In this document: in pieces, positions 1 through 40,400 of the stretch
Position numbering within the stretch: position 1 is the stretch's first letter
Layout of the letters: the number at the start of each line of letters is the position of its first letter
Origin: Pigoraptor vietnamica
Lineage: Eukaryota > Opisthokonta > Filasterea
Length of the DNA stretch: 49,877 nt
Direction: 5' to 3'
NCBI GenBank assembly: GCA_943704525.1
Contig: CALSCQ010002040.1
Coordinates: forward strand, 1 to 49,877
Program-made: the position numbers and the translations under genes
The notes under the pieces: generated by a model
The model's input: the letters and a program-made list of their open reading frames with translations, nothing else
Databases searched by the model: none
What the model was told of the DNA's origin: nothing

Positions 1-3000
1 GACGACGTCCCGACCCGCACAACGCCAGCGTCGCCGCTCGACACGCCAACGTCCGCCTCCCCGAGAGGCGCCGACGTCAGCCGCACAAACAGCGTCGTCG
101 ACTCGTCCGTGTTCAATGCTGGCCTTGCAAGTCGAAGATGGATGCGAGGCACCGGAACAACATTGACATTCGCGATTCCAGAGAGCCCGCCGGGATACCC
201 ATTGGCGAAACGGAAGTCGATCGCGGACACACCCGTTGTTGCACGCGCGTTGACGACGCAAACTCGCGGCATCGCAAAGTCGTTCGACGTAAAGGTGATG
301 GTCGTGGAATTCGAGGAACCGCAGGTCACTGAGGCGACCGAGCTACCTGTCAACGTCAGCGCAACAGACACACTCTCTGTCGGATCGGAACTGAGGCTGA
401 CGGTGATCGTGGTCGACTGCGATTGGTAGACCGAGACGTTGTGGGCGGACACAAGGATGTCGGGCGAAGGCAGAATTGAGAGCGACACACCGCCACCAAT
501 GAGAACGCCGGCGGTCGCAGAGTCCCATGAGAGAGAGACATCGCCGGGTGTGATCGCCAAAACAGACGCTGTTCGCGGCGTCCCATAGTCTCCACCATAG
601 AACCGCCGCGCGGCCGCCGTCACGGTCAACGAGACCGCGTCATTCGTTGGAGCCACGAGCTCAGCCACCCCAAGAGGCGCGGACGAAAGCCGGAAGGAGA
701 TCGCGGCGGTCCGGCCAGGCACAAGCCGGTTGCGGTCCAGAGAGAGGATAACGCGCGGTACTGCAACCATTTCAGCGAGTTAGCATTTTCAAAAAGAATG
801 CGCAGAGTACCTACACATGCTTGCAACTCACCCGGAATGACTGATACTGGGATCGAAATGGGGCTCGCAGTAAAACGAGCATCGACGACCGCCACGCTCA
901 GGGACATCGTGCCCTCGGTGATTGCCGACACACGCACTTCCTGACCGACATCCGTGAAGTTCACTGAGTCGAGGTAAAGGCGGCGGGGAGACACCGTCGC
1001 CACGTGCACGTCGTTAGAGATCACCTCCACGACAGCCAATTCCAAGGGCGATGAGTCAAGCCACACCACCACTGAGCCAGACATTCCGGGATAGAGCGCG
1101 ACCGTAGCGGGATGGACGACAAGCGCCGGCGGGCGCAAGGCCGTCCCTTCCCAAACGGTATTCGCAACGCCAGGAACAGGGGAGTAGGTGCCGCTAACTA
1201 CGGCGGCACCCGCAGCTCCCAACGTCACCGAAAACGATGCGGCCTGGGCGTACGTTGTGGCGTTGAAGGCCAAGGACGATGCCGACATGGACGAGATGGC
1301 CTGCTCGTGCGTCAGCGTGACACTGAACGTTCCCACAGGACGACCGGAGAGCGTGGCGGCCAGGACAACCGATTCGCCGGGAAATCCCATGAAGGTTGGC
1401 GGCTGGACGACAAGCGACGGAACTGGCAATACCTCCAGATTTACCGACGCCATGACCGACGCAACAGGGAGAATGGGCGCGCCAAGTATCTTCGCAGATC
1501 CCGGAGCGATGGCCCGAACGTCGACTGCTTGCGCCGCAGAGTAGTCGTTGGACCCGAACGTGACGATGGCAGACACCAGACCCAGGAGAGAGGCGTCCGC
1601 AAGGAGGAACACCGACGCCGTGCCGATAGGAGCCGAAGTCAGGCTGACGAAGAGGCGAGTCGTCGTGCCGGGATACATCGCAGAGACGCCGACAGCCAGA
1701 ACGACCGAGGGCACCGCAAACACGTCGGCACTGATAGTTGCCGTCAGCCACCGCTGTCGGAGATGGCCTCGGAACGTCAATGCCACCGCTTGCCCAGGGG
1801 CAACGCCGGCCAATGTCGCCGTTTGCGCGACTCCAAACGCCACCGGCGTAAAGACGAGCGGGTTCGCATCCGCCCACAACACAGACTGGTTTCCTGACGA
1901 CGCATAGACGCTCAAAGCCTCCAAGGGCGCCGACGACAGGCGCACGGAGACAGAGAGCTGGCCGCTGACGTACACTTGCGTCGAGTCGTAGGAAAGCAGA
2001 ATCGAAGGGACTGCAAGCGACGAGCACATCGTCCGTCAATGCCCGCAATCAAGGCATGCGCACAGAAAGCAAATACAAAGAATGCTACACCCACCAGGCG
2101 AAACCGTCAGGCCCAGAGCCCTGCTGTCGATCGGCGCGTCACGGGCCCGCACAACCACGCGTGCCTGACCAGCATCGATGGCATTGACGAAAATCGAGAC
2201 CCCTGAAGTCCACGAGTTGTCGCTGGCTGAGAGGGACACGCGATCGACAGACGTCGTGAACGTCGCGGCACTGTCGCTGACCACATCGAACGTGGCCGTA
2301 CACGCCGGCGTCGACGTGAGTCGGACGGTCACTCCCAAAGAATCACCCACGTAGAGTGCCGCAAGGGACGACTCGACAACAAGGGATGGCGCTGCGCACA
2401 AATCATTACGATTAGTGAGAATTCAAACACGCATCACCCCATCCAAAATCACCAGAGCGTCAACAACGTACCGTCAATAATCTGCAGGTCCAGCGACACT
2501 GGAACAAGGACGGTCGACCCCGAAAACTTCGCCACTGACAAGCTGATGGGCCCGGAAATCGTGCCGGTGAGTGCGACGTTCACCACATCTGCCGCCGACG
2601 TCAGCCGGACCCTATCCGGCACCACCGTCAGCGAGTTGCCGGCGGACAGAGACAGAATCGTTTCGTCGATCGGCTGAGAGCTGAGAGAGAGCTGGAGCTG
2701 CACCGTGGTGCCAGTGTAGAGCGAGGCGCATTCGAGCACCGGCAGGATGACTGGAGGTGGCACAACCTGAGCCGTCAGGTACACCGGGACAGCGGTGCCA
2801 GCGACAGCGGCGGCGGACACGACGGCGGTGCCGATCGCAACACCCGTAATTGTCAGCGCCTGCGGAACATTCCAATTGTTCGCCATAAAGGTGACGGTGG
2901 TAGTACCGACAGACGCTGCGCCCGACGAACTTGAGATGGCCACAATGGTGTCGACCAGCGGCGCCGAGGATAGCGATAGCAAGACAACGGACGATCCTGT

Positions 3001-6000
3001 TGGGTTGACCGAGACAGCCGCCGCGCTCAGCCGAAGGCCAGGGACTGCGACCACGTTCACCAGCAACGTGGCCGGCGCGATCAGCGAAGAAACGTCCGCA
3101 TCGGCCTCGACGATCACCGAGCTCTCGGAAATACCGAGCAGTTGGACCGTCTGCGCAACCGCGTAGTTGGACACGGTAAACACGAGCGTCGACGTAGTGA
3201 CGGTCACTCCGACCGCATTCGTCGAACGAATGGAGACCGTCACGTCCTGCAGAGGACAAGAGCTCATCCGCAACGAAGCGCCCGCGTGGTCGCCCACGTA
3301 CATCGCAACCGCCGCGGGTACAAACTGCAACGAGGGCACAGGAATAACGCTGACGTCGAGGGTCGAAGATGGAACAGCGACGCCAGCGGTGTTCGCGCCA
3401 CCTTCGCCAGCGAGAACCGGCGCAAAGGAGACCGACGCGTGACCCGCAGCACCGCCCGAAATCGTCACGAGCTGCGGCGAGGCGTAGTTGACGTCGTTGA
3501 AAGACAACACATCGACCGATGCCAACGCGACGCCCGATCCGGTCGGTGTTACCGTCACGATCGTAGTCCCGACCGGGCGCGAGCTCAGCGAAACGTACAC
3601 CGGCGTCCCCATCGACGGAAGCAGCGTCACAGAAGACTGGCTGAGCACTACAGACGGGACCGCCCAAACGCGGTAGCCGAGCGACGCGCCCGCGATGAGC
3701 GACGAGCCGCTGGCCTTCGACAGAGAGATGGATCCCGTGCCAACCGCGGCGGCAGAGAACGTCACCGATTGCGACGACCCGAAGTTGCCAGTGGAGAACG
3801 CCAGAGAGGAGGGCCCCAAACCGTGGCCATTCGCGCTCAGCCCAATCGTTGTAGCGTCAATGGGAACAGACGACAGAGTCACGCCAAACGACGAGCTGAA
3901 GCCGCTGTAGACGTCGATAAACGACGGCGTCGTCACGATCGCGGGCGCAGCAATGACGGAGATGCTTGCGGACGCCGACGCCGTGAAACCGGCAGTGACC
4001 CGTGCCGAAAACGACGTGAACCCGACGTCGAGACCGGTCACAGCGGCCTGCACCGAGCTCGTGAAGTTTGCCGGCGAAAACCAGAGAAGCACTGGGGCAA
4101 CGCTTGCGGTCGTCGCATCGGCACTCGACAACGACACCGGCGTCGTTGCGATCGGGGCCTTCGAAAGCGCGACAGAATAGAGCACAACGCCACCCGGATT
4201 CACCGTCCCAGTTGCGGGCAGGACGACAACGCTCGGTACTGCGTGGTAGCGTGATCATGGTCAGTACACGACAAGGTCGCGCGTGCACACACCAACACCG
4301 CAAAGTCTCACTCACCCGCCACCACGGTCATTGTGAAATTGACCGTCTGCACGACCACGCCGTTGAACGTCACCAAGAACGTGAAGACGGAGGTGCCCGC
4401 GGTCTCCGCCGTCAGAGAAATAGACACGGACGTAGGCGATGTGGGAAGGAACGAGAGGGCCGCCATCGAGGACACCGCCACGGATGCGTTCGAGGGCGTG
4501 ACGCCGACGAGCACCTCGGCCAGCGGCGCCGCCGACATCGTCAGGACGACAGGTTCCGACGCGCCGGCGTACACCGTGCCCGAAGTGGCCGACAGTGACA
4601 ACGTTGGAACTGGGCGCGTTCAATCCAGAGATTCCGTTAAAAAATCAACGACAACTCGACACAGATCGGCAAGACTATAACGCGCACGACGCGAAACAAT
4701 ATCACTCACCAGGTATGACCACCACAGAGGCCGTCTGCGCCGAAATGGCCGACGTGCCCGAAAAGCGGGCAAAGAGCATCGACGCGGAGCCCACAGCGCG
4801 AGCCGTCACAGCGATCGGCACACTGACGAGCGACGAAGCGGAGAAGGCCAGCTGCGACAGCCCCCCGAAAGCAACGGCGGGTGCGCTGCTGTCGGCCGAA
4901 ATGACCGTGTCGTCGATTGGGATGCTCGACAGCGAAACCGTGAGGGACGCCGACATCGTCGGATGCAGAACAACGCTCGACGGAGAGACCGTCAGCACCG
5001 GCACCGCGACCACGCCAACCGAGACCGACGCATTGGCTAGGCCGACAGTCGTGCAGCCGGGAGCAAGCACAACAGTGAACGTGCCCGGCACATTCGGCGC
5101 CGTCACCCGGAGACTGTAAGGCGCGGAGAAATTCCCAGGGGAATACGTCCAAGAGCTCGACGGCACCGTCGCACCGTTGCCAACGGCTCTCAGGCACACC
5201 CCAATCACCGGCGGCAGAGACAGAGTAACCGCCACGCTGAAAATGTCGCCAGGATTGACCGAGACGGCCGACGGATTGGCGCGGACCATGGGCACTGAAT
5301 GAAATAGCGGTTGTCAGCAACATTGAAGTGTTGAAGCACTCGCTTCAGATCACGCCGCGCAGAATACTTACCGGCCACGGCGGTGACGCTCAACGACACG
5401 CTCGCAATCGGTGCGCGCCCGCTGGAGAGGCTCAGAATGATGGTCGCCAAGCCTTCCGCGTTCAGGGCAACGGCAAACGCCACGGGACTGCTGAAGGCAG
5501 ATGGGGTCGCGAAGAACGTGCTGGGACGCACCACGGCCACCGACTCGTTGGCAGAGAAGACCGAAATTGTCGTCGCATCGAGAGGCGCACTGGACAAGAA
5601 CGCAGACAGAGCGAGCGTGCTCCCGACGTAGTCGACAGAAGTTGGCCAGGTCGTCACGATTTGAGGGACTGCGTGCGAAAATGCATGTGAGCGAACACGC
5701 CACGCACCCAATGACAATGGCCGACGACGCCACGTGCAGTCAAATTCAACACTGACGCAGCCGCACTGATACGACACTTACGTGCAATCACGCTGATGCT
5801 GACTGTCGTCGATGCAATCGTCGTCAGTCCAGACGACTTCGACACGGTGAGAACAACGGTGCCGACCGACGTCGCCGAGATGGTGATCCTCTGGGGCACG
5901 TCGGAATCGGACGGCGAGAACGTGAGCGTCGACGGTGACACGTTGGCGCCCGCGCCCGTCACCGAGAGGAGGAGGACCGTGCCGTCCGCTGGAACCGACC

Positions 6001-9000
6001 CAAGCGTAATATCACGCGTTACGGCCAGCCCCGGCACGGTGGTCGTGTCTCCACTGCTCACCACAATTGTCCCGTCTGCGCAACAAAAGCACCATGTCAT
6101 TAGAGTGGTCCAGCAATACATACGCGCGCGCGCGCCTCCCTCTCCCATCCCCGCGCCCAAACCAAACCCCTTGCATTCAGGCAAACAGCGCAAGCAACTC
6201 AACCCACTCAGATATCCAGAGAGCGCAACAGTTGCAGTCGCCACGACTGGCGAAGTCTGCGGCACCGCAAACGAGATCGTTGCGGACCCTACGAACGCCG
6301 CCGTAACTGCGGCAATCGCACCGCTGCCATACCCCGTCGTCGTGAGTGTAACGCTGGTTACGTCCGTCACGCCAATCGACGAGTCCGACACGACTATCGA
6401 CACAACTGTGTCCTCGATGGGAGCGGACGACAGCCGCAGCGTGAGCGGTGCCGTCGTGCCCATAGAAAGACTCAGCGATGACGCGGAGACGGTCAGTTGG
6501 GGAACTGCGTGACATAAAGTGTGAGCACGCATTCAATGCAACAAACGCCGTTACGGGGCGGAGTGAGCCACACGTGGACCAACCTGCGAAGATCCGGAAG
6601 TTGTTCGACACGGATGCAATTCCAAGGGTCGACCGGTCGCTCACAGTGACCGAAACACCGCCCGCGCCCACGCCGGTCAGGCGGACGACCTGCTGCGTGG
6701 TGAAGTTGCTCGCCGAGAACCAAAGTACGGCCGTGTCGACCGTGCCGACGGCCGTGCTGTTCACGGCCACAGCGACAGAGACCACGTCCACCGGAGACGA
6801 CGACAGCGAAACAGTCAGCGTCGTCACTACACCGACGTAGACGGAGGTGGGACCGACCACAACGTTTACGGTCGGTATCGGCGCCACGACCAGCGGCACG
6901 GCTGTTGTAGAGACAACCGAACGACCGGAAACCCACGCAATCACGACGTTCGACGTGCCCGCCGCGAGGCCCGTGACGGTCACGGATGCTCCGTTGTACG
7001 CGGCACTCGTGAACGACACGCTCGCAGGGGAGATTGTCAGCGCACCCTGCATGCCCGACACGACCGACAGCCCCGTTGCACCAAGCGGCGCCGACGAGAG
7101 GGAAACGGACAAGGATGAGGCGGTCCCCTGAGCAATGACCGCCTTCGAAAACGCCGCCGAGATGAGCGGAAGCGGCGAGACGACGTAGTTCAGCGAGGCC
7201 GAGGCGATGGTGACACGGTATCCCACGCCAGCCGCGGTGATAGATCCCGAGCCGACAGCAGTGCCCTGCAGAGATAGGGTCGACGATGCCGGGTACACGC
7301 CCGACGTGAACGTGATCTGCGACACCGTCAGACGACCCGACGTGGGATCCGACACCGTCAGCGCAACGACGAGATCCCCGAGCGGCGCAGCGGTGATGGA
7401 GACCGTCACATCCCCGTTCATGTTCGGATGCATCGTCACGGGCGCTCCAAGAGAGCTCGTGACCTGCAGAGAGGGCACCACAAGTACGCTAATGGGATAC
7501 GCGACAGACGCGATGCCAGCTCGCCCGCTGACCGTCGACTCGGACACGTTCAGCGCAACGTATCCCTGCGCCACGCACGAGACAGTCACCGAAACGTACT
7601 GCGCATAATTCGCCGGGCTGAACGACAGCGACGACGGAGAAACAGTGCCGATCTGCGAGTTGTTCATGGCGACCGAGAGCGTCACGGTGCCCAGGGGCGC
7701 CGACGATAGCGCGATCGCAACGACGGCTGTCTCCTGAACGTGGTACTTTGCCGCCGGCGGAGTGCTGACGCTTATCGTTGGCACCGGAACAACGGTCAGG
7801 GTCACGGTGCCGCTTGCGACGGACGAGGAGCCGGCCGTCTTCCACACTGTGATGGTGGTCGTTCCAATAGAGCTCACCGATACCGTCACGGTCTGCGCCG
7901 TCCCATACGACGAAGTCGTAAAAGTCAGGGTGCTCGTCGAGAGTGTAGAGGTCCCGCCAGTCGCCGTCACCGACAGCGTCGTGGAATCGAGCGGAAGCGA
8001 CGAAAGCGACACCGTAAACGTCATGGTTCCCGGATACATCTGCACGGATGTGGGGCTCAGGACGAGGTTCGGCACGGCGAGTACCGTCGCAGACACCGAG
8101 ACGGCCGAAACGAGGGATGTCCCCGAAGCCTTGCTGACCGTGATCGACGTCGTCCCCACCGCAATGCAGTTCACGGCAATGCTGCGCGGCGTCGAATAAT
8201 CCATCGGAGAGAACACGAGCGTGGACAGGACCACTCCGGCGACGCCCGGGTTCGCCGACTGAATCGCCAGCGTCGTCAGAGTCAGCGGTGCAGACGACAG
8301 GCTGATTCCGACGTACGACGTCTTTGCAACTTCGTTGTACACAGGGGGTCCAACTACTAGGGTGGCCGCTGCACGAATGGGGAAAAAAAAAAAAAAACAA
8401 GCGTAAGAAGCGTGTGATGGCGACGACGCGCGACGCCACGGCACTCACCCGGAATGACTGTGACGTCCAGGTAGGTCGAGCCCACGTTCGTGTTGGTCGT
8501 TTCGACAGCGTTGACCCGGACATTGCCGACGGTGACGCCCGTGACGTCAATGTTGAACTGCTGCGGGTAGAGCGATCTGACGAAGGACACGGTCGTTGGC
8601 GAAATGGTGACCATCCCAGCCACCGACGGCGACAGCGCAAACGAGCAGTCCTTGTTCGGTTTCTGAGACAGCCGGAGCACAAAGCGCGCAGTGTTGCCGA
8701 CGTCGATATCGTTCGCAGCCGGGCTGAGAATGGCAGCGACGTCTGCGCAACAACACACAGTCAGCATCCGCGCGATTGACCAACCCACGCTTCAATGCAA
8801 GGGTGCAACTCACTTGTGTCGACCGAAAAAGCAACGTCCACCGGCAGCACCGCCGACAATCCCACGGTCTTCGTGAACGTAACAATTACGCGACCGACAA
8901 GCTTGCCGCGAACGGTCACCGTGACCGGCGTGGCATAGTTAGAAGTCGTGAACGTGAGCGACGCGGGTGTCACCGACGCGATCGTCGAATCATCCGGTAG

Positions 9001-12000
9001 AGCCGACAACGTCGTAGAGTCCAGCGGCACACTCGAGAGACTGACGTAGATGTACTGATTCTGGCTGGGCGCCACGACGTAGCTAGACTGCGTAGCGACG
9101 ATGGTGGGGGCTGCGGCGGCACAAAGTATGCGATGAGCGATGTCTCACCAAAGGGATGGGCAGAAGGTCACGTGCGTACAAAGCAACCCACCGTTCCGAA
9201 CAGTAACCGGCACGGTCACGGTCTCGAGCGATGACGCGCCAGCAATCTTGGCTACGATGAGGCTCGTCGTGCCGACAGCGTTGCCCGCCACATCCACAAA
9301 CGTCGGCCCGAGCCCATTCACGCCATACACCACCGTGGACACATTCACAAGGGCAATAGACACGTCCAGGCTCAATGACAGTGTCGTCCCGTCAATCGGG
9401 TTCGACGAGAGCGAGACGTTGCACGCGGTCGACGAGCCGACCTCTGTAGTGATGCTCGACGGGGACACGACAATTTGCGGAATTGCGACAACGCTCACAG
9501 GGATCGGCAAGGCGGCAATTCCGGTGCCCGAAGTCGTCGCCGTCACCGTAACCGCCCCAGTTGTGCCAGTCGTCCCTCGCACAGTCACATTCGCCGTGCT
9601 CGAATAGTTCTGGGGCGTGAAAACGAGCACAGTCGGCGTGACTGTCACGCCCGTCCCTGACGTGACCACCACAGAAAAAGTCGTCGAGGCCAGCGGCGCA
9701 GACGAAAGGCTTATGCCGCAAACAGACGAACTGCCAGCATCGAACGAGACCGACGAGGGGTTCGCCACGATCGTAGGCACTGCAAACGAAAATTAAAAAC
9801 TCGTCAGCACATGCGACGCACATTTTGCACAAGAGCATTCCCTCTTCGAATCTGTGGACCAACCAGGGTTGACTTGGACAATAGCCGAGGAGGACACGAC
9901 GTTCGAAGGGCCCGAGAGCCATGTGACAGTAACCGCGCCCGCTCCAACCGCCGTTGCGGAAACCGTGACGGTCTGCGCGACAGTGTAGTTGGATGTCGTG
10001 AAGACGAGGGTGCCGAGGGACGGCGAGCCCAGCGTGCTCCCCGACGTGGTGACCCTCACGGCGACAGTTCCCAACGGGACGCTCGAGAGAACCACCGTGT
10101 ACGCCGACGCAATTCCGACCGTCGTCAGAAGGAACGACGGCGAGATGGTCGCTTGCGGGACGGCGCGAACAGTCACCCCGAGCGACGCCGACGCGATCAC
10201 CGAAGTACCCGAGAACTGCTTCAGCAGCACTGAGCCCGACCCGATCGTCACACCGACGAACGAGAGCGACTGGGCAGCGGAGTAGTTTCCGGGGCCAAAT
10301 AGCGCACGGGCCGGCGTCAAGGACACCGGGGAAGACACATTCCCAAGCCCTATTTCCGAGGCGTCGATCGGCGGGAGGGAGAGCGACGCCGAGACGGTCG
10401 CCGCGCTCCCAACCTCGACAATGATGCTCGTCGGAGAGAGGACGATGCTCGGCGAAGCCCGCGCGTCAGCGAGAAACGTCGTCGAGACGATACCCGTGTT
10501 CGCGATCGACGGCGCAAACGTGAAGAGGGAAATCGCGGGTGTGCCGGCCGTGACAGTTGCCGTCTGGGGAATGCTAAAGTTCGCGACGGTGAACGTCAGC
10601 CACGATTGCGCAATCGTCGCGGTCGAAGTCGAGACATTGGACGACACGGCAAGAACGAGATCTTGGTAAATCGTGCTCGTCAGCGACACGGAGAAAGAGA
10701 CCGGGCTCCGCACGTCAAAAACAGAGCTGCGCGGCGCCAGGCTGATCGACGGCAGCGTCCAGATGCTCAGCGAGTATTGCTTCGCCGCAAGCAACGAGCT
10801 GCCCGATTGCTTCGACACTGTCATTGCGGCAGTTCCGCCAGAGACGCCGAATAGGCTGACGGCCTGCGACGTTGTAGCGTTCGCAGTTGTGAAAGTAAGC
10901 GTCGAGGGCGAAACACGCCCCACGCCCGTGCCGCTAATCGCGAGAGACAAGACGGTCGTGTCGAGCGGTGCCGAGGAGAGCTGCACGTATGTTGTCGTTG
11001 TCCCGTTCACGTACACGTTCCCGGATGCCGGCGAAATGACGATGAGCGGCGCTGCGGAGAGAGATCGAATTCATTAGTGGGTGTGCCCTTCAGATTCGCG
11101 AGGCCATTGCCAAATGCAGAATTACTCACCCGCGCGAACGGTTACGCTGACTGTTCCGCTCACAACAAAGCTCGTCGAGACCGAAGTCGCCGTCACATTG
11201 AGAGTGCCACTCCCGATAGCCACGCCCGACAGCTGTACAGTGACAGGCCCTGTGCCACCCGACGAGAAGGAAAAATCGCCTCCGCCGACGGCGAAGATGG
11301 TCGAATTTGAGCCCGAGAACACGACACGGTATGCACTCGCCGCAGCCGCCGAAAGGGACGCAGCCACGGACGCAGTCGACGAGACTTCCACGATGACAGA
11401 CGAGGGCAGGACGAGAGCGGGAGCCGTCACGACCGAAACCTGGCACGAGGAGCTGCCAAATGTCGCGCCCGACTGCGACGCCGAGAAACTCAGGGTCACC
11501 GCGCCAACCGCCTGGCCCGTCAGCGAGACAGTCCGAGCCTCCGAAAAATTCGTCGCGGCGAACCAGAAGGTCGTGGCGCTGAGGCGGAGGTACGACGAGG
11601 TCGTGGGAGAGACCGTCACCGCAACAACAGCAAGCGGCGCGGACGAGAGCTTGACGGTCAGAGGGAAGACACGCCCGACCTCCACAGAGCCCTGTGAGGC
11701 CGACAACACAACCGACGGAATAGCGAGGAGCGAAACAGCGACGCTCGCATTCGCCACAGGCGACGAACCCGACGAACGGGACAGCTGCACCGACCCAGTA
11801 ACAGGCGTCGCCTTCGTCACCACCACAGACACCACCGTCGAGTAATTCGTCGCCGTAAAGAGCAACGACGAAGGGGACATCGTCGCGCCAAGGTCGGCCG
11901 AGCCCAAGGAGATGCGAATGTCATCGCGCGGAACAGACGACAGCTTCACGGTGAACGACACAGAGCCCACGTACGCCGTGATCGACGACACCGACGTCAC

Positions 12001-15000
12001 GATCGTCGGAAGAGGATTGAGAGTGAGCGCGACAGATGCACCGGCAATCGTCGACAGGCCCGACAACTTGGTCAGCGACAGGGACGCCGTCGTGGTAGCA
12101 AGCGCCAGTGACTGCACGCTGACATTCTGGTACGTGCTGTAATTCGACGTCGTGAAGACGAGGAACGACGGCGCCACAGTAGCGAGGGTGCTCGCCGACG
12201 ACGAGAGCGAAATGACCGTCGTGTCCCTCGGCGCGCTCGTGAGGCGAACGCTCAGAGTCTCGGGCGTTCCGGTGAAAACTGTCAACGACGAGCGAACGTC
12301 GATGGCGGGCGTCGCGACCACCGTCACAGAATACGCCGATGCCGGAATGGGCGCAACGGCCGTAGATGCGCTCGTCACGGCAATGCTCCCCGAGCCAACA
12401 GAGAGACCGCGCACGGTCACCGTCACAACAGACGAATAGTTGGACGAGGAGAACACCACCGAAACGGGCGACACCGACGCCACAGCGCCCCCGGCAAGCT
12501 GCACAACGACGACGCCATTCGGAGACGACGACAGCGACAAGACGAACGTCGTCGATCCCCCCACGTCAGTTGTTCCCGATGAGGGCGAGAGGACAAAGGT
12601 CGGTTGCGCAAGCACGACCAAAGCAAATGTGGCGCTGGGGATGATCGACGTGCCGGACGTCTTGGATGCCGTGAGGACCGTGGAACCGGCCCCGGCGGCG
12701 GTAACCGTCACCGTCTGTGCTACAGAGTAGTTGCTAGGAGAGAAGAAAAGCACGGACGGCGACAGCGTGCCCACGGACGCCGAGAGCGTTGACACGGAAA
12801 ACCCGGTCACATCAAGCGGAGGCCCCGTAAGTGTGAACCCGACGCGCGCCGTCTGAGACACGAAGAGCGATGCCGACGACTGGCTAAGAACCAGAGAAAC
12901 ATTGTTCTGGACGCCAATTGTAACCGTGACGTCGGGAACGCTACCGCAACCCGACACGACGCTGAGGACGATCCGCGCAGTTCCCACGCGTCGAGGAGCA
13001 ACGTACACACGTTGCGGAACCGTCGCGTTGACCCTAAAGAACGCGAAGAACTTGGGCCACGTGTACACGACGCCGTCGTCGCACGACTTGTAGTTCTCGT
13101 GCTCGTCAGGGTCATAATCACAATCGTGGCCATCACGATCGTCGTCGTCGTTGTCGTCGTCCCGTCGACGGCGATTGCGACCAAAGTTGTGGTCCCACGA
13201 GCGGTGGTTGTTGTCGCGGCACATGCGGTCGTTGTTGTTGTCAACACAGTGCAGACGGGAGCCGTCCTCGCTGTCACAGAGGACCGTGACGGTCACAACG
13301 GCATCGTGTGCGCAGGGGCTCGAAAACGACACCGCATACGACGAGTTCTGTCCCAATTCGGTCGTGTACGCGGTTCTCTCCACCAGCATGGTCGTCGCTG
13401 CGCAAAAATATAACCACGACACGTCAACACATGATTGCGTACACATGAGAGTTTAACTCCACAACATGTGACACGAAATCTCGCAACAGCACAGTCATCG
13501 ATACTCACGCCCAAGGACCTGAAGTGAGTATTGACCGGACAGATAAACCGGCGACGAGGGAACAGTCTGCGCCGCCAGCGACACGACGCCCGATCCGACC
13601 GCCAGCGCAGTGACCGTCACCGAACGCGAGGAATCAAAGTTCGTCGTGGAGAACGAAAACGACGACGGATAGATCGACGCCACCGCGCCATTTGACATTG
13701 TCGCGATCAGCGTGAAGCTTTGCAGCGGCTGCGACGACAGGCGGAACGTAAAAAGCTGCTTGCCGCCCACAGTCGAGGTCGCCGACGTCGGCGACAAGAT
13801 CAGACTCGGTGCCGCGACAACGGAGAACGTGGACGTCGCAGACTGAATGGGCGAGCTTCCCGAATACTTGGAGAAAGTGAGCGAGCTGGTGCCAAGCGCG
13901 CTGGCGACGACCGTGACGCTCAGGGACGCGCTATAGTTTGCCGTCGTGTAGACGAGCCGCGCCGCCGGCACAGGCACAACGCCGACCGCCGACGACACGT
14001 AAATCACAGTCGTGTCGACCGGAGCGCGCGAGAGCACCACCCCGACGACGACGCTGCCGTTCACATTGGCAACTTGCGCCGACAGCGTCGCAACAATGGA
14101 CGGCGCCGAAGTGACAGACACCGCCAACGCCCGGCTGGAAATGGTCGACGCGCCCGAAACCTTGGCGACCGTTATCGTCGTGTCACCAGCCGCAGTTGCA
14201 AACACCGTAGCCCGCTGGACGGCCGTCGAATTGGCCGGCACGAAAGTGAGCGTCGAAGGTGAGACGGAGAGAGTGGACGACGAGGCGACGGTGAGCGACA
14301 GAACCGTAGTGTCCGCGACGGCCGACGAGAGGCTCACGCCTAGTTGACGGGAGCTCCCCGCATCCACAGCCGTTCCAGTCCAGTCGAGCACGACAGACGG
14401 CCTCGCAAGGATTGTCGCGTTGAGGCCGCACGCGGCGACGATGCCGTTCGCGTCCGTGATGTTAACGTACCCCCTGCCTGCCAGCGAAGCCGTGAAAGTG
14501 ACCGTCTGCGGCAGCGAGAAGGAGGCGCTGCTGAAGAACAGAGTCGACGGCGCCACTGTTCCCATGGACGTGTTCGTGAGACCGACCGAAAGCACTACGG
14601 AATCGAGGGGCGCTGACGTCAGCGACACGGTAAAGGGCTTCCCGATGTCAGTCTCCACCACTGCAGACGAAGGCGACACGACCCCGGAAGGAACCAGGGC
14701 CACGACCGCAGCAATAGACGCGGGCGCCACGCGCGACGAGCCGGCGGTGCGGGAGAGCGACACCGACACCGAGCTTGTCGACGACACTCCCGTCAGCGTG
14801 ATCGAGACCGCAGTCGAGTAGTTCGACGTGCTGAACACGAGCGTGCTGGGACGGACGGTCAACGATCCGGATGATGCCACAACCGACAGCGACACGGCGT
14901 CCAGGGGAACCGACGAGAGAGACACTCCAACAGACGCAGATCGTCCCTCGTACACAGATGCCGACGTCGCACTCAGAACAATCGATGGGACGGGTCGCAC

Positions 15001-17415
15001 CGTCACAGGAATAATCGAGCCTTGGACCGCGCAAGGGCCGGACACGAACGCCGCAGTGAGCGTGCCAGTCGCCGTACCAAGTGCCGTGACGTTGAAGTAC
15101 TGCGCAGCCACGGAGGACGCGGGGAACACAACCGCAGCCGGCGACACGGTAAAGCTCGCTGTGCTAGAGGACGACAACGACATGCGCACATCTCCCGCCG
15201 CGCAGCGATCCGTCGGCGAGAGAGCGAGAACCGTCGTCGCGCCAACTTCCGTGGTGAGGGATGCAACGGAAAACAGGGCAGCCAACACGTTCACAGCCGT
15301 CACCGTGCAGCGAACCGACGACAGCCGGATCGCCGTATCACTCGAAGACGCAAATGTAGCGTCCACCTGTCCCGTCGCCAGCGCCCTAACTGTCACAGTC
15401 TGATCCACTTGGGCGTTCGCCGACGTGAATGTGAGCTGCGAGACCGAAAACGTGGCGATGTCCGACCGCGACAGGTTCACGACGACCCGCACGTCCGTGG
15501 CAATATCCGAGGAGAGGCGCACCATGAGCGCACGGGTGGCGCCAACGTTGATCGACGGCGTCAGTTCGCTCAGCACGACAGACGGAATCGAAAGGACCGA
15601 GAGAGCAAAGCTCGACGACGCGACGAGCGAGGTTCCAGAGACGCGCTGGATTGCAACAGAGCACGAGCCCGAAGCGCGGCCCCCGACGGTGACCGAAGCC
15701 GCAGTGGAATAGTTCGAGGGGCTAAACGTCAGCAGCGTGCGACTGACGTTCGCAACGTTCGCGTCGCTGACGGCGACCGAAAACGTGGTGATGTCCGCAG
15801 GCGCCCTCGAGAGCGCGACAGAGAATGCTCCATTGGACCCGACGTGTATAACGGCCGACGCCGGCTGCACCACCAGCGTCGGCAGCGACGTCACGGTCAC
15901 CGTCGCCGAGGCGGACGAAATCGTTGACGAACCGGACGCCTTCGAGAACGCGAGCGTCACGGATCCGGCCGCTTGTCCCGACACAGTCACCTGCTGCGGC
16001 ACCTGGTAGTTGCGAGACGTGAACAGAAGCGCCGTCGTCGAGACAGACGCAACACCGGCGGACCCGACAACCTGCACGCTGATCTGCGTGTCGTCCATCG
16101 GCTCGGACGAGAGCGTCACGGCGACGGTGCCCGAGCGCCCAGCCTCGATAGAGAGCGTCGAGGGGCTGACAACGATGGTCGGCCTGCCCAGGCAAGACGC
16201 CGTGAACACGGTATCCGGAAAGGACAGTGCGCACGAAATGTCCCGCGTAAGGCGAATGCCGCAGCTCCCGATGGTCCCCGTCACCGACACGGTGAGGGAC
16301 AACGTCGTGATGGATCCCGACGAGAAGGTCAGCGAGGAAGCGAGCGGGCGAGCAATGAGCGCATTGTCCGTCGACAGTCTCGCTACGCACGCAAGCGGAA
16401 TCGTGTCGTTGAGAGCCACATCGTACACGACCGTCGACCCAGAACCGTTGTACTCCACCGCGCGCCGATACCCAGACGACACGCAGGTTCGCCCCTCCAC
16501 GACGAAGTTGGGGGCGCCTGAGAGCAGGCTGTAATATGAGCCGCCGTCGGTGGACACGGTAATCGGATACAGTCCTGGCGTCGCCGAAGCAGGGACCGTG
16601 CAGCGCACCGTTCCGTACGTGCTCGACGCCTCCCAGTTGGACGAGTCCACAACAGCCGCCACCGCGGTCAGATTGCCAAACTTGCAGAAGACAGACGACG
16701 AAGCCGAAGACGGAATCTTGTACGGCAGCATCACCACCACCGACGTGCCCGGCGGTCCCGAGGACGGTTGCAGCGACCGGATGCTCGGGCGACTGCACGA
16801 GTAGGTGCGACGGGTCGAGCACGGCCGCCCGCCGTAATAGCGAGCGACGGACACAGGGACTGGGTCGTCGTCGGGATCAAGCGCCGGCGCATCGCACACG
16901 ACGTAACCACTCGAACTCCCGTAGCCATTCACGACGCTCCTCACGGGCGAGTAGCGCGACCCGAACATACAATAAGAGGATGTCGAGTACCGTGTCGTGT
17001 CGGTCACAGCGACCATCACCGTCGTGAGTGAAGGACCCGTCGGCGGCGACAGAGAAACGACTGAAATGTCGTTGTACGTGAACGTCGCCGTTGAATAGGG
17101 GCCGGGAAAGGCAAACGAGAACGCACGGACGCGCACGCGATAGGGCGTGTCTTCGTCGCCACCCGCAGGCGTGTTGCACGTGATGGACGGGGGGTCCCAT
17201 CGCACGCTCGTCACGGGCGACGGGTCAAGGCCCTCGAACTCGCATCTGCTCTGCAACGAAATGTAGCGGAACATGAAGTCGTACGCGCTAAAGGTCAGCG
17301 TGACCTCCGTGTACGAGTCTCCCATAGAGGGCGAGATGCTCAGCACCGTCTGAGCAGCCACGTCGACGGGAACGAGCGACGTCGCCACGAGACATAGGGC
17401 AAGCACGAAGCGCAT
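1..17415 (-). CDS. Giant secreted modular protein (signal peptide, IPT/TIG-like domains, about 49 tandem beta-sandwich-like modules), 3' end beyond window
   Basis: Start ATG at 17415 gives a signal peptide (MRFVLALCLVATSLVPV...). An upstream in-frame ATG at 17478 would bury it, so I prefer 17415. Exons on the minus strand: 17415-13509, 13397-11130, 11051-9864, 9779-9192, 9110-8814, 8742-8449, 8368-6584, 6504-6208, 6075-5782, 5668-5372, 5294-4710, 4609-4316, 4238-2472, 2391-2095, 2010-832, 760-1 (open at the edge). All 15 introns are phase 1, 71-132 nt, mostly G|GTGAGT donors. At least 5,365 residues are encoded. After the TIG region, modules of 98-99 residues repeat with motifs like LSSAPLD near the middle, LTFT..NYS..QTVTV after it, and a linker ending in a PSIVLSPSS-like strand. 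The modules are almost cysteine-free. Known: this repeat style is typical of Ig-like/Calx-beta-like sandwiches in large adhesins. Inferred: cell-surface or matrix adhesin. No membrane anchor is visible because the C-terminus lies outside. The family is not recognised with certainty. Confidence 0.85.
13075..13280 (-). other. Asp/Asn/Arg/His-rich insertion in the first module of exon 2
   Basis: The first module of exon 2 is lengthened by about 65 residues that begin near CDSEDGSRLHC and end near SCDDGVVYTW. The insert is very rich in D, N, R and H and includes a run with repeated DxD spacing (DDDNDDDDRDGHDCDYD). It has several cysteines, which the ordinary modules lack. The reading frame is kept and the module's last strands resume after it, so it is probably a surface loop. 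A metal- or calcium-binding role is only an inference from composition. Confidence 0.6.
16190..17415 (-). other. N-terminal region of giant protein: signal peptide plus three IPT/TIG-like domains
   Basis: Residues 1-22 form a hydrophobic signal sequence. Three units then begin with the IPT/TIG-type opening: SISPSMGDSYTEV (about residue 26), SLSPPTGPSLTTV (about 120) and SLQPSSGPPGTSV (about 214). Each is followed by a cysteine-bearing strand (CEFEG, CMFGS, CKFGN) and a second strand with Cys (ITCNTP, VVCDAP, VRCTVP), the usual IPT/TIG layout in plexin/Met-like and slime-mould TIG proteins. A further cysteine-containing segment (about residues 312-408) has no domain I recognise. The 98-99 residue modules start at about residue 408. 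This is the only cysteine-rich part of the chain. Confidence 0.7.
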
Positions 17416-17703: not shown

Positions 17704-17734
<31 letters not shown>

Positions 17735-18381
17735 GCACACACAACACATGCGCGCACACAGACGCACGCGTGTGAGAGAGCAGGGCACCAGCGTGCAAAG
17801 CGCAAAGGCGGGCACTCGAGTGGGGACCTGCGCGGCAAACCGGCGGAGAGGAAGAGAATAGAGGTGGCGGGAATTGCAGGGAAAAGGCGTCTCGTAATGC
17901 ATTGCTCACACTTCACCGAGAATTATTTGGATATGAATTTTGTATGGAATCGAAAATTATTTCATTGCCAACCTCACTAACTCACTCTGTCCGCTTCCTA
18001 ATAATTCTAATTTGTATGAATTAACTATGGACGACCTGATGTACAGATAAATATCGTCGATTTTCATCGAGCGATTGTAATACTCAAAACTGATCACTAT
18101 GGGCAACTCCCGCGGCAGAGAGCCGTGATGATGTTACCATCGGGCGATATATTTTTCCCGATTTGGTAACACATCTACAATATGAACCTTTTCCGGCGCT
18201 AAGGAACAGGCGTTCAAGGGTTCGTTGCACCGCGTGCGGACACATTGTCGCATTTTACGATCGGAGAGTCACGTGACCGCGTGAACGTAAACGGCTGGTC
18301 CGTGCCGGCAAAAGAAAACCACTCGTGAAGGTAAATTTAGAGTTTGGACGACTACCTGCGCGCTCAGAGAACGCGAAAAGA
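17416..18381 (+). other. Intergenic region between divergent genes
   Basis: No gene is supported here. The left part next to the giant gene's start has GCGCGC tracts (about 17426-17453), as expected for a GC-rich promoter. There is a CA microsatellite near 17711-17742. From about 17900 to 18220 the sequence turns AT-rich. Open frames across the microsatellite encode only low-complexity His/Thr or Cys/Val runs and look accidental. Confidence 0.6.
17711..17742. repeat. (CA)n microsatellite
   Basis: A nearly pure CA dinucleotide run, continuing into degenerate CACG repeats, in the upstream region of the giant gene. Confidence 0.9.
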
Positions 18382-20436: not shown

Positions 20437-23400
20437 TCATGCCATCTCAAAATCGAACGGAAATGAAACTTGAATCGCCTCCGACAGGTTGACAGAAGGG
20501 TCTGCAGCAGCGCCGTTTCTCATTCATGAGCCAAAAGAGAGAGAGAAAAAAAAAAAAAAAAAATTCAACTCACCTGCACGGACGCCGAGTTCGAACGCAC
20601 AACCCGCCCCGTAGGAGTTGAAAGCGGCGATGCGAATAGCAGTCACAACGCAAGGGGACGTCGCGCAGCCACCGCCGCCCAAGTCCTCCAGCCTGCCAAC
20701 CGAGTCAATGTCGATGGCGTCGTCATCGATCGATACGAGCGTCACAGCGTCGCTGACCAACTGGTCTCCCGCAAGCGCGCATTCAAACATGTCCACCTCC
20801 GCGGGACCCTCCGCCGGCACGCCTCTCGCACGGTCGAGAGTGGACAAGAGAGAACCTTCCAGGCAAACACCGACCGGAAACCGAGTGTCCGGCACCGGCG
20901 TCGGCTGATCAACAGCACCGCTTGGCCAGGTGCCGCTTCGACTGCGCTTGCGCGTCCGCGTCGTGTCCAACTCGCCGTCGCCCTTGCGCACTTTCCGCGG
21001 TCCGGTGCTCTGCAGCACGCCGCACACAGTGGCTGGTAGGCACGCGCCGCCCGCGCCAGGCTGAGGTTCACGCCCGATGCCGGTCGTCGCATCCACGACG
21101 ACGCAGTTCAGTGCCCCCTTCCACGCGACGATCCACTCATTTCTGTCAGAGCAGAACGACTCGACTACAAATCCGAGCAGCGGCGACGACCCGCATTCCG
21201 TCGGAGGGAGCCAAGTGACGACGAGGGACTTTCCGCCGTCCTTGTGGCATTTCGCGCGCACGATACGCCCGGGGACGCCTGTGGATCCGTCTGTCAGGCC
21301 AACGCCCCCGTGTACTCGGCTACACGCATGCAAGCGCATGCAAACAGCAAACACGGTACCTTCAAGAGTTGTGGACACGTGCAGCTCCGAGCTGAATTCG
21401 CTCTGTCCGCACGCGTTCACCGCAGCGACACGGAAAACGTACTCCGTGAGGGGTTGCAGAGCCTGGCGCTTCTCTTCGACGGCGCCTGCGGTGGCATGCG
21501 TGTCGCTGGGCGCGGCGACGGCGATCTCGTCTCCTTTCACCTCGGTTGAAAGTGGCGGCGTGGCGGCCGAGGGAGTGCCGATCCCGCTATCTACGGTCGC
21601 CTCGGGCGACGCAGTATTCGGCGTGGTGATTGCCTCATCACGCTTGAATTCGTCGCCACACACAAAGTCCGTCACGGTGCACGCGCAGTCGCGCACAACT
21701 CCCACATCGCGCCAGGCCGACCCGTCCTCCAAATGGCGAACCTGAACGTTGTATCCGTCCGCTGCGAAAGCACCGATTAGCAACGAGACCGCAGCACATG
21801 GGCGCGTGAATCAGTTGCACGATATAAAGCGAGGAAGAGGGCGGTTGTGCAAAGCGCGCATGCATGTTGTGCGTGCCTATGTCGAGGGGAAAGAACTTAC
21901 TGTTCTCCACGGATTCCCAACGAAGAACCACCTGAGACGCATTGCGATCCTCCGCCAAGAGGCCCGTCGGTTTTGAGGGCCGTCCTGCGCACACAACATG
22001 ATTCGCGGTATGAGCATCGCCGAATACGCGGGACGAATATTGGCGCATAACAGCAGAAGGAAAAACGCACACACGGTGTGAGGCAGCGCACCTGTTTCCA
22101 GCATCCACATGTCTTTGCAGCAAATTTGGCTGTTCCACGCGCGCCGGTACTCGTCGCGACCGCCCCAAACGTACATGCGCGATCCAATCTGTCCGTTGGC
22201 ATGCACGGGTGAGAAGGGGCGCACACCATCACACTCTCTCGCACTCCGCTTACCGTCACAGCCGCGTGTCCCGCACGCCCCTTGGGAAACCGACCGACGG
22301 TCGACCCTACTCGGACGGGTTCCCACGACATCGACGCTGCACACAGGCGTACTTGTCAGCCACTGCAACACTGCACATCAAAAGCCGGCTTCCGAACAGA
22401 CACTCACCGAGGTCGAGAACGGCGAGCGTCCCCGTGCAGCGCCACTCGCGCCTCGCGGGAGAGTCGTAGGCAGCCGCGATGCTTCCAGGCCCATAGCTCG
22501 CAGACCCGGATGACGGGAGCCCAGGCGTGGATGCCGACGGCGGCACCGACGTGACAACGGACGGCTGCGGCGTGCGATACGGGGGCGCATACGAAGTGCC
22601 GGTCGGAACCCAGCCGCCGAACACAAGCATGCGGTTGCCAATGACGACCGCCGAGTGAAGGCTGCGTGGTTCCGGGCGAGGTCCAAGCGTCTGTACCGGC
22701 AGCCACGACGAAGACTCTGCACAATTGGGGGAGCCCACAGTGTCAGGGAGAATACACGGTGGGAAATGAGGGTCGATGAAATGCGACGGATGAATTGCGC
22801 ACACCCCGCAACTGTTGGACAGAGCAGCTCACCGATGTCAAAGATGGCGACATCCGCGAGGCGCCTGCCGTTCATGCCGCCAAACACGACGATGCGGCCG
22901 TTGTGGACGACGCACGTGTGCGACTCGCGCGGCTGAGGCGGGGTTCCTCCGCACGCCACTTTGGACCAGCGGCCGACGTCGAGATCACAGACATGCATAT
23001 CTGTATGGGTGTGACCGCGGGCGACAAACGCATGACTACAAATGCACACGGACAACGCATACGAGAGTCAAGCTACCGAGCCGGCAAAAGACGACCCACC
23101 GTTCAAGTAACCGGGGCCGGCGGGGGTGCGCACGAGGCCGCCGAAAACAAAGAGCCGCCGGTCCACGAGACACACGGCAGTGCCAATGCGCGGTTGGGGC
23201 AGTTCGCCCTGGGCGTCAATGGAGCGCCAAGACCACGTGCGCGTGTTGAGTTCGAAGAGCTGCGGAACAGCAAGGAAGGGGGCGTTACTCACAACCACGG
23301 GCGTAAAACCAACAGTGCCAGGGGACAATAATCCGCACCCAAGAGGCTCACAAAGACATGCACGCGGGCAAAAAACATATTGTCCGCACCCAAGAGGCTC

Positions 23401-23949: not shown

Positions 23950-24399
23950 CCTCGCGAGAGGGGCGCAAATTTAGCGCCTTGAACGCTCTGCTGACACGGC
24001 TGGAGGGCTTGTACTGGCTTTTCTACTGCATTGTGAGAAAGCAGGTAGAGCCGAGTGGTCGCCGTTAACTGATGCGACCGTAACACGGCGTTAAAGAGGG
24101 TATAAGAGAGGAAGAAGGCTGTCGCAGTGTCAGTGCTAGCGAAAGCAAAGCCCGGCGCCCACAACGACGCACACAAGCACGCATTCGGCTGGATGTCCGT
24201 TCGCGCTTGTGCCGGTGTGTGAGCTGCGTCAGCGCTGGTGTTTTGCCACGTGTAACCTGGGACGCCACTGTGACATCATTACCTTTGTCCAATCGTCATT
24301 ACCTTTAGTCCATATTAGTGTAATAAATAATTTTATTGGACATATTTGGATATTTATTTTTAAATAAGAACATATTTAGTGTTAATGGATCGTAATGGC

Positions 24400-24648: not shown

Positions 24649-27129
<2,481 letters not shown>

Positions 27130-37439: not shown

Positions 37440-40400
37440 ATGCTCCCCCTCAACAAGCTGTGGCCGCAGCGCAGGCGCTCGTCGTCCGACTCTGCAGCGG
37501 CAAAGCCGTTCAAGGCGCCCGTCCGCGCAGGGCGTGAGGGTGCACCGGCAGTGCCGTCTTCGGCAGTTGCATCCGTATCTGCGGTTGCCCCTTCTCAAGG
37601 TGATTGCTCTATGTGGCACTGCGCTTGTTATCCGCCGGCGAGCGAGTAGGAGGCTAAATGCTCGCTGTCGCCTTGTGGTTTGCGGTTTCCGTACAGGAAC
37701 GGGCGTTGCTGGCAAGCGGAGGGGGGAATGCGGCGGCGCAGAACAGGGGGCGACGAAGCGACCGCGGGTGGAGGGTCCGACGCAGCGCACGGTTCGTAAC
37801 CTGAGAGAGTATTTCGTGCGAACCGCGCCTGCAAATGCGACAGCGCCTGCGGATTCGGCGCCTGGGGAGAGGCAGGAGGGTACCATTGCAGTGCGCATCG
37901 GCGACGGCGCGGCGCGTGACGTTGGCGAGACAGCGGGCCTGTCGTCGTCGTTGCGGTATGACGTGTCGAGCCATTCCCCGTGCGTGATCGAAGACGACCC
38001 GTGCGAGCGCGGTGGTGCCGATGCCCCTGGGGATGGCGGCGTGCTGTGCTATGCGCCGGAATCTCCCGCAGCCACCCGCGCACTTACGACCGGCATCATG
38101 TATGGAGCGGTGAACGAGTCGATTGTAACCGATTCCGCGTTCGATTCGAAGACCCCACGCGTCCTTTTCCCGCTCCACGCCGACTCGCTGCCATCTCCGC
38201 CCACATTAGGCGCCGATTTTCGCGCGTCTGCCGTTTTCGGCTCGCCTGCGCCTGTAGACGAGTCGATGGACGCGTCGCGTGTCGAAAACGGTGCCGGAAG
38301 TCCGTGCGTGATTGAGGAAACTCCCGCTGCAGGCGATCATGTGCTGGAGCGAGGCTTGCGTTCTGACGCAGTCTTCGATGTTGCACTCTCTCGTCCGGCT
38401 CTCGACGCCGCTGCGAATCGAGCGCACTCGTCGCCGTCCGCGGTTGCATCGCCGGGCTCTCCTTTCGACATACCTGCTTATTCGCCGCGGTTCGAGCGAC
38501 AACTTGCGCTCGTAATGGATGGTGTGACACCCGACGTGAGCGGCGCAATGTCAGTTCTTTCGGAAAACCTTCGGGAGGGTTGCGGAGACGTCGGTCGCCC
38601 CGAGGCAGCGGGTGAGAGGGGTCTTTCGGACAGTTTCGGCTCTGCGGACTGCGACGACGTATTTTTTGACCTTGACACGGACGCGTTTGCTCAGCACGCG
38701 GACGGTTCGTTCACGGTACCATCGTACGCATTGGACCTATCAGAGGACGAGAGCTTTTGGAAGAACCGCAAGCGACTCGAAGACCTCGGACTCCCTCCCG
38801 CCGTGTTGGACGCGTATCGCACTCGCGGCATCCGCTCTCTCTACGAGTGGCAGGAGGAGGCGCTTGCGACTGCCGGTGTGTTGGAGGGCTCCCGCAACCT
38901 CGTGTACTCCGCGCCGACAAGCGCTGGCAAGACGATGGTCGCAGAACTTCTCGCTCTCGTGAGGTGTCTGGAGTCCGAGTCGAGCGGTGCTTCGCGGAGA
39001 AAGCGCAAGCGTCGTACGCGCGACCCGCGGTTGGCGAGCGCCCTGTTTCGCGGGCGGCGGCGCGCTCTGATAGTGCTGCCGTTTGTGAGCATCGTGGTGG
39101 AGAAGGCGAGGCATCTCTCGGCGCTCTTTGGGGCGGCCGGCCTCGAAGTTGCCGCCTTTTACGGAGGGAAGGGCGCGGGGCTCGACGGCCTTTGGGACGT
39201 TGGCGTGTGCACGATCGAGAAGGCGAACGGGCTGCTGAACCGCATGCTAGAGGAGTACGGGCCAGAGGGCCTCGCTGACGAGCTGTGCTGCGTCGTCATC
39301 GATGAGCTCCACACTCTCGGCGACACCTCGCGCGGTTACCTCCTCGAAATGATACTGACGAAGGTGCTCGCGTCGCACGCGCGGTCGTCGGGGGATCCCC
39401 ATGGCGCTCCTCCGCCCCAGATAGTGGCGATGAGCGCGACGCTGCCGAATTTGGACGAATTTGCGCGGTGGCTGCACGCGGAGCTCTTCGTGACGGACTT
39501 TCGGCCGGTTCGGCTCGACGAGTATATTCTGCGAGAGGGCGAGCTCCTGTCTGTAACTGCGAATGGGGTGGATAGATCTGACGTTGTCAAGACGTACGAA
39601 GGGGTGCGCACTGCGGCGGACGGCGTGCTCGCTCTGTGCAGCGAGTCGGTGGCGGGTGGACATTCCGTGCTCGTTTTCTGCTTCTCGCGCGTGGGTTGCG
39701 GGACGACGGCGAAAGATTTGGCGAAGAGAGGCGAGTGGGATTGCACCGGCTGGACGGTGCGTCGGTCGGTCGGAGCGGCTGCAGGCGCGCCGGGCTCTGC
39801 TTACCTCGACCGGGGCGAAGAAAGCACCTGGACACGCGCGCGCGACGCCCTACTCGACCGCCTGAGACGGTCGCCTGCGGGGCTGGATGATGTCCTGGGC
39901 GAGACCCTGAAGAAGGGCGTTGCTTTTCATCACGCTGGGCTCACGACAGAGGAGCGCGAGGAGGTGGAGGACGCGTTTTCGCGCGGAATCGTTCGCGTGC
40001 TCGTCGCGACGACGACGCTGGCGTCCGGCGTCAACCTGCCCGCGCGGCGCGTCATTTTCAACTCGTACAGCACCCTGCTGTCGGACAACAAGCCGGACCG
40101 CATGCGCTATTCGCAGATGAGCGGGCGCGCGGGACGGAAGGGCCTCGATACGAGCGGCGAGAGCGTCGTTGTTGTGGACGAAAGAAACTTCGACTCTGCT
40201 GTGAAGTTGCTGGTGGCTTCTCCGTCGAATGTGAAGAGCGCGCTCGTCAACACGGCGCTTTTGGAGCGCGTGCTCCTCGAGGCCATCGTGAACAAGTTTG
40301 TCGCGTCAACGGATGACGTTGCAGCGTACGTGGGCCTGACTCTCAGGGCGCACCAGGGAGGAAAAACAGGTGCTCTGCCGCAGGTGCTTGCATCGCTCGA

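Follow-up and report, generated by a model that had tools for sequence, protein, structure and literature searches.

Modular proteins of class 1-1 have been described as restricted to animals (Patthy 2021, PMC8001218). The accessible part of that paper cites work in which no exon shuffling was seen in Monosiga, and links the rise of class 1-1 shuffling to an invasion of introns at the origin of animals, where it made the proteins of the body plan. Insertion at AG|G, the proto-splice site, is proposed there as one cause of the preference for phase 1 in animals. A second described system is that of Tetrahymena, in which nearly 50,000 LRR exons of 90 bp, more than 96 % separated by phase-2 introns, are attributed to exon shuffling (PMC6564038, accessible part); a brown-algal case is known to us from the reference list of that paper only. 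Within the accessible portion of the open-licence PMC literature we found no organism other than animals for which class 1-1 domain exons are reported.

We have analyzed a stretch of 49,877 bases (the window), which is the entire contig C833 of an assembly of 32.5 Mb in 1395 contigs. On its minus strand, running from 17415 to 1, there is a predicted gene of 16 exons and 15 introns with a single open frame. The joined exons comprise 5,365 codons with no stop, and the 3′ part of the gene lies beyond the end of the contig. The joined frame begins MRFVLALCLVATS, a start that resembles a signal peptide by eye, with a second in-frame ATG 63 nt upstream. It continues into three TIG segments and 50 modules of ~98 residues, of which 48 are full by the module profile, one (in exon 2) is interrupted by an insert, and one is truncated at the contig end. 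The predicted features are listed below. Exons are taken from the joined frame (together with the module profile for exons 1, 2 and 16, and with splice pairs and a Pfam scan for exon 1), and introns from the listing of splice pairs.

13509..17415, minus strand: exon 1 (3907 nt), signal-peptide-like start (by eye), three TIG segments and nine modules
17062..17358, minus strand: TIG domain 1 (E 3.3e-4, 21.0 bits, just above the cut-off of 20.9)
16780..17070, minus strand: TIG-like domain 2 (E 0.0026, 18.2 bits, below the cut-off)
16486..16794, minus strand: TIG domain 3 (E 5e-7, 30.0 bits, above the cut-off)
13398..13508, minus strand: intron 1, phase 1, 111 nt
11130..13397, minus strand: exon 2 (2268 nt), a module split by the insert, then six modules
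13075..13281, minus strand: Asp/Arg/Asn-rich insert of ~69 residues within module 10, where the module profile is broken (residues 1341-1411)
11052..11129, minus strand: intron 2, phase 1, 78 nt
9864..11051, minus strand: exon 3 (1188 nt), four modules
9780..9863, minus strand: intron 3, phase 1, 84 nt (second-best donor, the best also phase 1)
9192..9779, minus strand: exon 4 (588 nt), two modules
9111..9191, minus strand: intron 4, phase 1, 81 nt
8814..9110, minus strand: exon 5 (297 nt), one module, the source of the structure model
8743..8813, minus strand: intron 5, phase 1, 71 nt
8449..8742, minus strand: exon 6 (294 nt), one module
8369..8448, minus strand: intron 6, phase 1, 80 nt
6584..8368, minus strand: exon 7 (1785 nt), six modules
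6505..6583, minus strand: intron 7, phase 1, 79 nt (two tied donors, both phase 1)
6208..6504, minus strand: exon 8 (297 nt), one module
6076..6207, minus strand: intron 8, phase 1, 132 nt
5782..6075, minus strand: exon 9 (294 nt), one module
5669..5781, minus strand: intron 9, phase 1, 113 nt
5372..5668, minus strand: exon 10 (297 nt), one module
5295..5371, minus strand: intron 10, phase 1, 77 nt
4710..5294, minus strand: exon 11 (585 nt), two modules
4610..4709, minus strand: intron 11, phase 1, 100 nt
4316..4609, minus strand: exon 12 (294 nt), one module
4239..4315, minus strand: intron 12, phase 1, 77 nt (phase 2 also possible with a weaker pair)
2472..4238, minus strand: exon 13 (1767 nt), six modules
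2392..2471, minus strand: intron 13, phase 1, 80 nt
2095..2391, minus strand: exon 14 (297 nt), one module
2011..2094, minus strand: intron 14, phase 1, 84 nt
832..2010, minus strand: exon 15 (1179 nt), four modules
761..831, minus strand: intron 15, phase 1, 71 nt
1..760, minus strand: exon 16 (partial, 760 nt), two modules and part of a third, ending with the contig

The introns were called as GT..AG pairs lying no more than 60 nt from the flanking anchor peptides and compatible with the reading frames. At 14 of the 15 sites every frame-compatible pair is in phase 1, and at intron 12 (4315..4239) a weaker phase-2 pair lies alongside the phase-1 pair. The donor used is top-scoring at 13 of the 15 sites, second best at intron 3 and tied at intron 7; the latter two were picked to preserve the length of the module, and their alternatives, also in phase 1, would lengthen the linker. 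The introns range from 71 to 132 nt (median 80, n = 15). Each of the 15 splits one fixed codon, that preceding module residue 1, with the module start extrapolated by one to three residues from the profile at four of them. All internal exons are 3n nt in length. Seven exons hold a single module, and exons with two, four and six modules are each found twice. Introns are present at 15 of the 49 junctions between modules, and the remaining 34 have none. The initial annotation had described 16 exons, 15 phase-1 introns at a fixed place in the linker, exons of one, two, four or six modules, a TIG-bearing first exon and an insert-bearing second exon, and all of this is borne out.

The array has features in common with the LRR genes of Tetrahymena as described in the accessible part of PMC6564038, namely repeat exons of fixed length, an extreme phase bias set against normal controls, and exon duplication. 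It differs from them in that the exons are 294/297 nt and in phase 1, that they encode a beta-sandwich of ~98 residues, and that many exons are fused, whereas in Tetrahymena the exons are 90 bp and in phase 2 and one possible exon fusion was found. With 294/297-nt phase-1 beta-sandwich exons, the gene is not an LRR exon array of the Tetrahymena type.

In the N-terminal region two of the three TIG/IPT segments (PF01833) exceed the Pfam cut-off of 20.9 with 30.0 and 21.0 bits, and the third falls below it at 18.2. A scan of exon 1 as a whole gave no TIG match. When each of the 50 modules was scanned singly none reached a curated Pfam cut-off, and the 14 matches at E ≤ 0.05 are each below their own cut-off, the best being fn3_6 at 20.1 bits against 26.4. 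A scan of six exon stretches against NCBIfam gave no match. The structure prediction and a family search were based on an alignment of 47 modules (A2, omitting modules 4, 10 and 50). Cadherin is absent from the 19 families matched at E 1 by any of these 47 modules, and the window gene is thus not a cadherin.

Modeling of the exon 5 module gave an Ig-like beta-sandwich with a pLDDT of 98.2, a prediction of very high confidence. Its structural Z scores are similar for bacterial Ig-like domains of the Big_2/S-layer SbsC type, chaperones, MSP and ASH domains, and therefore the fold alone is in common. Against Big_2, the Ig-like bacterial surface domain, the module scores 16.7 and 16.4 bits where the cut-off is 22.8. 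A model of the N-terminal structure had a mean pLDDT of 39 and was not used. Because a signal-like start and TIG segments are followed by a long chain of beta-sandwiches, the architecture suggests that the gene probably encodes a giant secreted or cell-surface protein, forming an adhesive or structural rod, or a coat. The Asp/Arg/Asn-rich insert in the middle of module 10 (13075-13281, minus strand) had no Pfam match; from its composition only it might be a calcium-binding loop.

Searching the genome with a consensus of the module gave at least 46 matches, 44 of them on C833 itself and a single one on each of C82 and C1019. Outside C833 these two contigs were the only ones among the matches listed, and the remainder of the window gene past the contig end was not found in this search. 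The gene on C82 (79933-82966) opens with a signal-like exon, after which beta-sandwich exons alternate with short Cys-rich ones (72 to 120 nt). The exons are 190, 312, 72, 321, 108, 345, 120 and 273 nt in length, followed by a ninth that extends beyond the stretch read. The best-scoring splice pair is in phase 1 at all eight introns, with lower-scoring pairs of another phase at four of the eight; for introns 2 and 3 we used a donor that ranks second, or ties, among the phase-1 pairs. Further downstream, outside these counts, introns of other phases were seen by eye. On C1019 all three introns are in phase 1 and other phases are impossible.

The relationship of these genes to that in the window is made by profile, not by single sequence. 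A genome search with a single module sequence from C82 matched no other locus, and the kinship of C82 is based on its matches to the profile (best E 6.5e-14) and to the consensus (E 2.4e-6). The profile clearly matches exons 2, 4 and 9 of C82 (E 1e-7 to 6.5e-14) and exons 2 and 4 of C1019 (E 2.4e-4 and 6.6e-13). Three exons that we count as module exons are weak, these being C82 exon 6 (E 0.004), C82 exon 8 (no match) and C1019 exon 3 (E 0.11). Further along, both proteins have repeats that look Cys-rich by eye, and also a REJ domain (E 7e-32 for C82 and 2.5e-39 for C1019), a domain with seven matches at six loci in the genome. The module is thus found in differing contexts: with TIG segments in the window, with Cys exons, Cys-rich repeats and REJ on C82, and with Cys-rich repeats and REJ on C1019.

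The same layout is seen in a gene with a different repeat. There are 47 matches to cadherin repeats in the genome, 33 on C1328 and 14 on C874. The C1328 gene (34677-47467, truncated at the contig end) has 33 matched EC repeats, many of them in single exons; in carrying such repeats it is like the cadherins of animals and unicellular holozoans. Twelve of the 32 junctions between repeats can be read through without an intron, of which at least two (with gaps of 150 and 189 nt) may conceal one in frame, and 20 require an intron. At 19 of these 20 the best pair is in phase 1, three of the 19 being doubtful by score or peptide; the lone exception is in phase 0, across a gap of 415 nt that may hide a repeat. 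Seven single-repeat exons range from 285 to 294 nt. In a clean set of 16 of the 20 junctions (four omitted, including that in phase 0, and a second-best donor used in at least one, 40375..40302) the intron splits the Asp codon of a linker resembling DVNEAPT in 11. In the literature searched we found no description of a layout with one EC repeat per exon and phase-1 introns in a non-animal. The second cadherin locus, C874:60-4547, lies partly within a frame of 1099 residues.

Within the C1328 gene a block of 963 bp is duplicated with 96 % identity (43011-43973 and 46549-47511); one end of it coincides with the contig end, so that 963 bp may not be the full extent of the duplication. The copies have one intron in common; their divergence is 1.0 % for the first exon, 2.2 % for this intron and 5.9 % for the second exon. 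At the end of the block the repeat border carries a phase-1 intron in one copy and is read through in the other.

As controls we called introns in five other genes, these being an AAA ATPase, a methyltransferase, a Ca-ATPase and a PDI in the window, and a DOCK-like gene on C82, all named from their translations. They are the nearest readable genes and not a random sample; a subset of their introns was used, and the helicase/polymerase of the window and others were not counted. Out of 30 control introns 23 are in phase 0, three in phase 1 and three in phase 2; the last was not called by the script and is in phase 2 by eye. By comparison all 26 introns of the three module genes (15 in the window, eight on C82 and three on C1019) are in phase 1 by best-scoring pair, against 3 of 29 controls (Fisher p 1.2e-12, a value that overstates the case if the 26 were inherited through duplication and are hence not independent). 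Exon and domain borders coincide, one intron phase is used, the internal exons are 3n and the use of phase is non-random, as in class 1-1. We conclude that extracellular proteins of this genome are recurrently assembled from class 1-1 exons, while the introns called in the five other genes are mostly in phase 0.

From these observations on phase, position, open frame, further genes and controls we infer, with a probability of about 0.7, that the gene of the window is modular and of class 1-1, that it encodes a giant protein which is secreted or displayed at the cell surface, and that it grew by duplication of exons with their introns and subsequently lost introns, following a rule that recurs on C82, C1019 and C1328. 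Each module would be an exchangeable exon. Phase-1 introns at a fixed codon on both sides allow such an exon to be copied or relocated while the frame stays intact. The gene would most likely have grown through the duplication of module exons along with their introns, and later loss of many of the junction introns would have generated exons of two to nine modules. The intron-flanked single-module exon is probably the ancestral state, because phase-1 introns border the module in three genes of differing make-up, and the exons of two to nine modules are probably derived. The proposal of the initial annotation, growth by exon duplication with intron loss, gains support from the recurrence of the phase-1-flanked module on C82 and C1019.

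An alternative is that modules were duplicated in tandem within single exons to give the multi-module ones, leaving a minor role for intron loss. We regard this as unlikely. The unadjusted similarity of modules within an exon is slightly above the null value (0.192 versus 0.178, p 0.036), and neighbors in the same exon are closer (0.183, n 32) than those across an intron (0.141, n 14). Once the divergence of each module is allowed for, the within-exon excess disappears (p 0.93) and the difference between neighbors lacks significance (p 0.31). The best match of a module lies in its own exon for 6 of 48 modules, where 4.1 are expected. We also ran the module tree that had been suggested at the outset. 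In it two modules of exon 2, 13 and 14, group together (support 95/78), but exon labels require 33 changes against 35.4 when shuffled, and a number as low was found in 23 of 200 shuffles. There is thus no grouping by exon beyond chance and no clear sign of in-exon duplication; equally, none of the 45 inner branches is well supported, and the tree is no proof of intron loss. The similarity tests and the tree used 48 modules, all but 10 and 50. A search for duplication at the DNA level inside the window gene (blastn, 1e-6) found none. The module data are saturated, and old in-exon duplications would leave no trace at such divergence. Intron loss is the simpler reading, with no firm evidence for duplication inside exons.

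It could also be supposed that the array was once intronless, and that introns were gained by independent insertion at a preferred site in the linker, as introner-like elements or at proto-splice sites. The 34 intronless junctions would fit with this, and linkers of similar sequence could offer one recurring preferred site. Yet an AG|G site is found at none of the 26 module introns and none of 16 cadherin introns, compared with 9 of 30 control introns, and AG precedes the donor in 3 of 26, 0 of 16 and 17 of 30, respectively. Glycine accounts for just one of the 42 split codons (26 module and 16 cadherin). These figures do not agree with repeated insertion at proto-splice sites. Nor was there support for introner-like elements when the similarity of the 15 window introns was compared with 60 shuffles, the top pair scoring 25 against a shuffled median of 22 and a highest value of 27; the introns share no sequence beyond the shuffles, and this speaks against recent mobile introns. 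Moreover the flanking pattern is repeated in two more genes with the module and, at a different linker, in the cadherin gene. Repeated intron gain is accordingly rather improbable.

The layout would be ordinary if the host were an animal, or if these contigs were animal contamination. The assembly contains cadherin and REJ genes and at least 27 SH2 matches, and the window has a sub-threshold kelch match of the HCF type. A thymidylate synthase on C341, the G+C-rich copy, has no fused DHFR in its frame. The absence of the fusion is the state in opisthokonts and amoebozoans. Among the best 60 of 116 matches to the C-terminal 128 residues of this enzyme, the top scores are for 1rts and its kin at 227 bits, entries that we take to be mammalian; these are followed by 6k7q at 213, 4xsc and 5h39 at 198 to 201, and 5by6, 5m4z, 4iqb and 1ci7 at 172 to 187, with fused enzymes at 146 to 173. 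Against an animal source or contamination, the whole assembly is just 32.5 Mb, and we found at least eight homeodomain matches in it. Animals have far more homeodomains than this. The G+C content is alike at the four loci (C833, C82, C1019 and C1328), at 0.59 to 0.62. An 18S rRNA gene was not found in the assembly; the lone pattern hit, on C1236, had no Rfam match and looked like chance. The EF-1 alpha gene is broken off by the end of its contig, short of the part where its insert would be read. We consider an animal source very improbable. The host is probably a non-animal, a unicellular relative of animals, in keeping with the protist suspected from the start.

The poorest account, that several adjacent genes or a decayed locus have been mistaken for one gene, is very improbable. 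The gene model is a prediction from genomic sequence, but its 5,365 joined codons are free of stops, its internal exons are all 3n, the third-position G+C is 0.63 to 0.83 in the frames carrying the exons, and there is a single signal-like start, located at the first exon.

Compared with the class 1-1 proteins of animals, as presented in the accessible part of PMC8001218, the genes described here have in common domain borders marked by phase-1 introns, symmetrical 3n exons, extracellular beta-sandwich and Cys modules, and, on C82, exons of mixed types. They differ in three respects: their genome looks non-animal, their junctions avoid AG|G, and the module falls under every Pfam cut-off. The initial annotation had called so regular a case of 1-1 exons unusual in an apparent protist. 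The symmetry and the match of exon to domain stand, but the statement is too strong given the phase-2 shuffling published for Tetrahymena (PMC6564038, accessible part). Exon shuffling in protists is already known; the novelty lies in a class 1-1 design of the animal type that involves whole extracellular domains and is found in several genes of a single genome, probably not that of an animal.

We would put it at about even odds that a non-animal, probably a unicellular relative, assembled extracellular adhesion proteins in the class 1-1 manner with one domain per exon, and did so with cadherin repeats as well as with a private Ig-like module. In that case the mode known from animals is either older than they are or originated twice, and a preference for phase 1 need not stem from AG|G insertion sites. 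Four class 1-1 genes in a probable non-animal genome provide a direct test of the animal-restricted account, as given in the accessible part of PMC8001218. Dating the module introns in relatives would distinguish a mechanism that existed before multicellularity from two origins, and the fused exons together with the cadherin block duplication are material for timing intron gain and loss at domain borders.

Some other loci may be recorded. At 20527-24275 on the minus strand of the window is a possible host-cell-factor-like gene, with fibronectin type III above the cut-off and Kelch_HCF below it (E 2.7e-10). A DNA polymerase theta-like gene lies at 37234-43884 on the plus strand in several frames; in it a family A polymerase comes after a helicase with a POLQ helical domain. 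The stretch C788:25694-29569, with a G+C content of 0.39 in a genome of 60 % G+C, looks viral or foreign; DHFR-like and thymidylate synthase sequences occupy one open frame there. Long runs of GT/CA dinucleotides are found in introns or intergenic sequence of the window (approximately 25680-25810, 26220-26280 and 17710-17740), and at other loci too.
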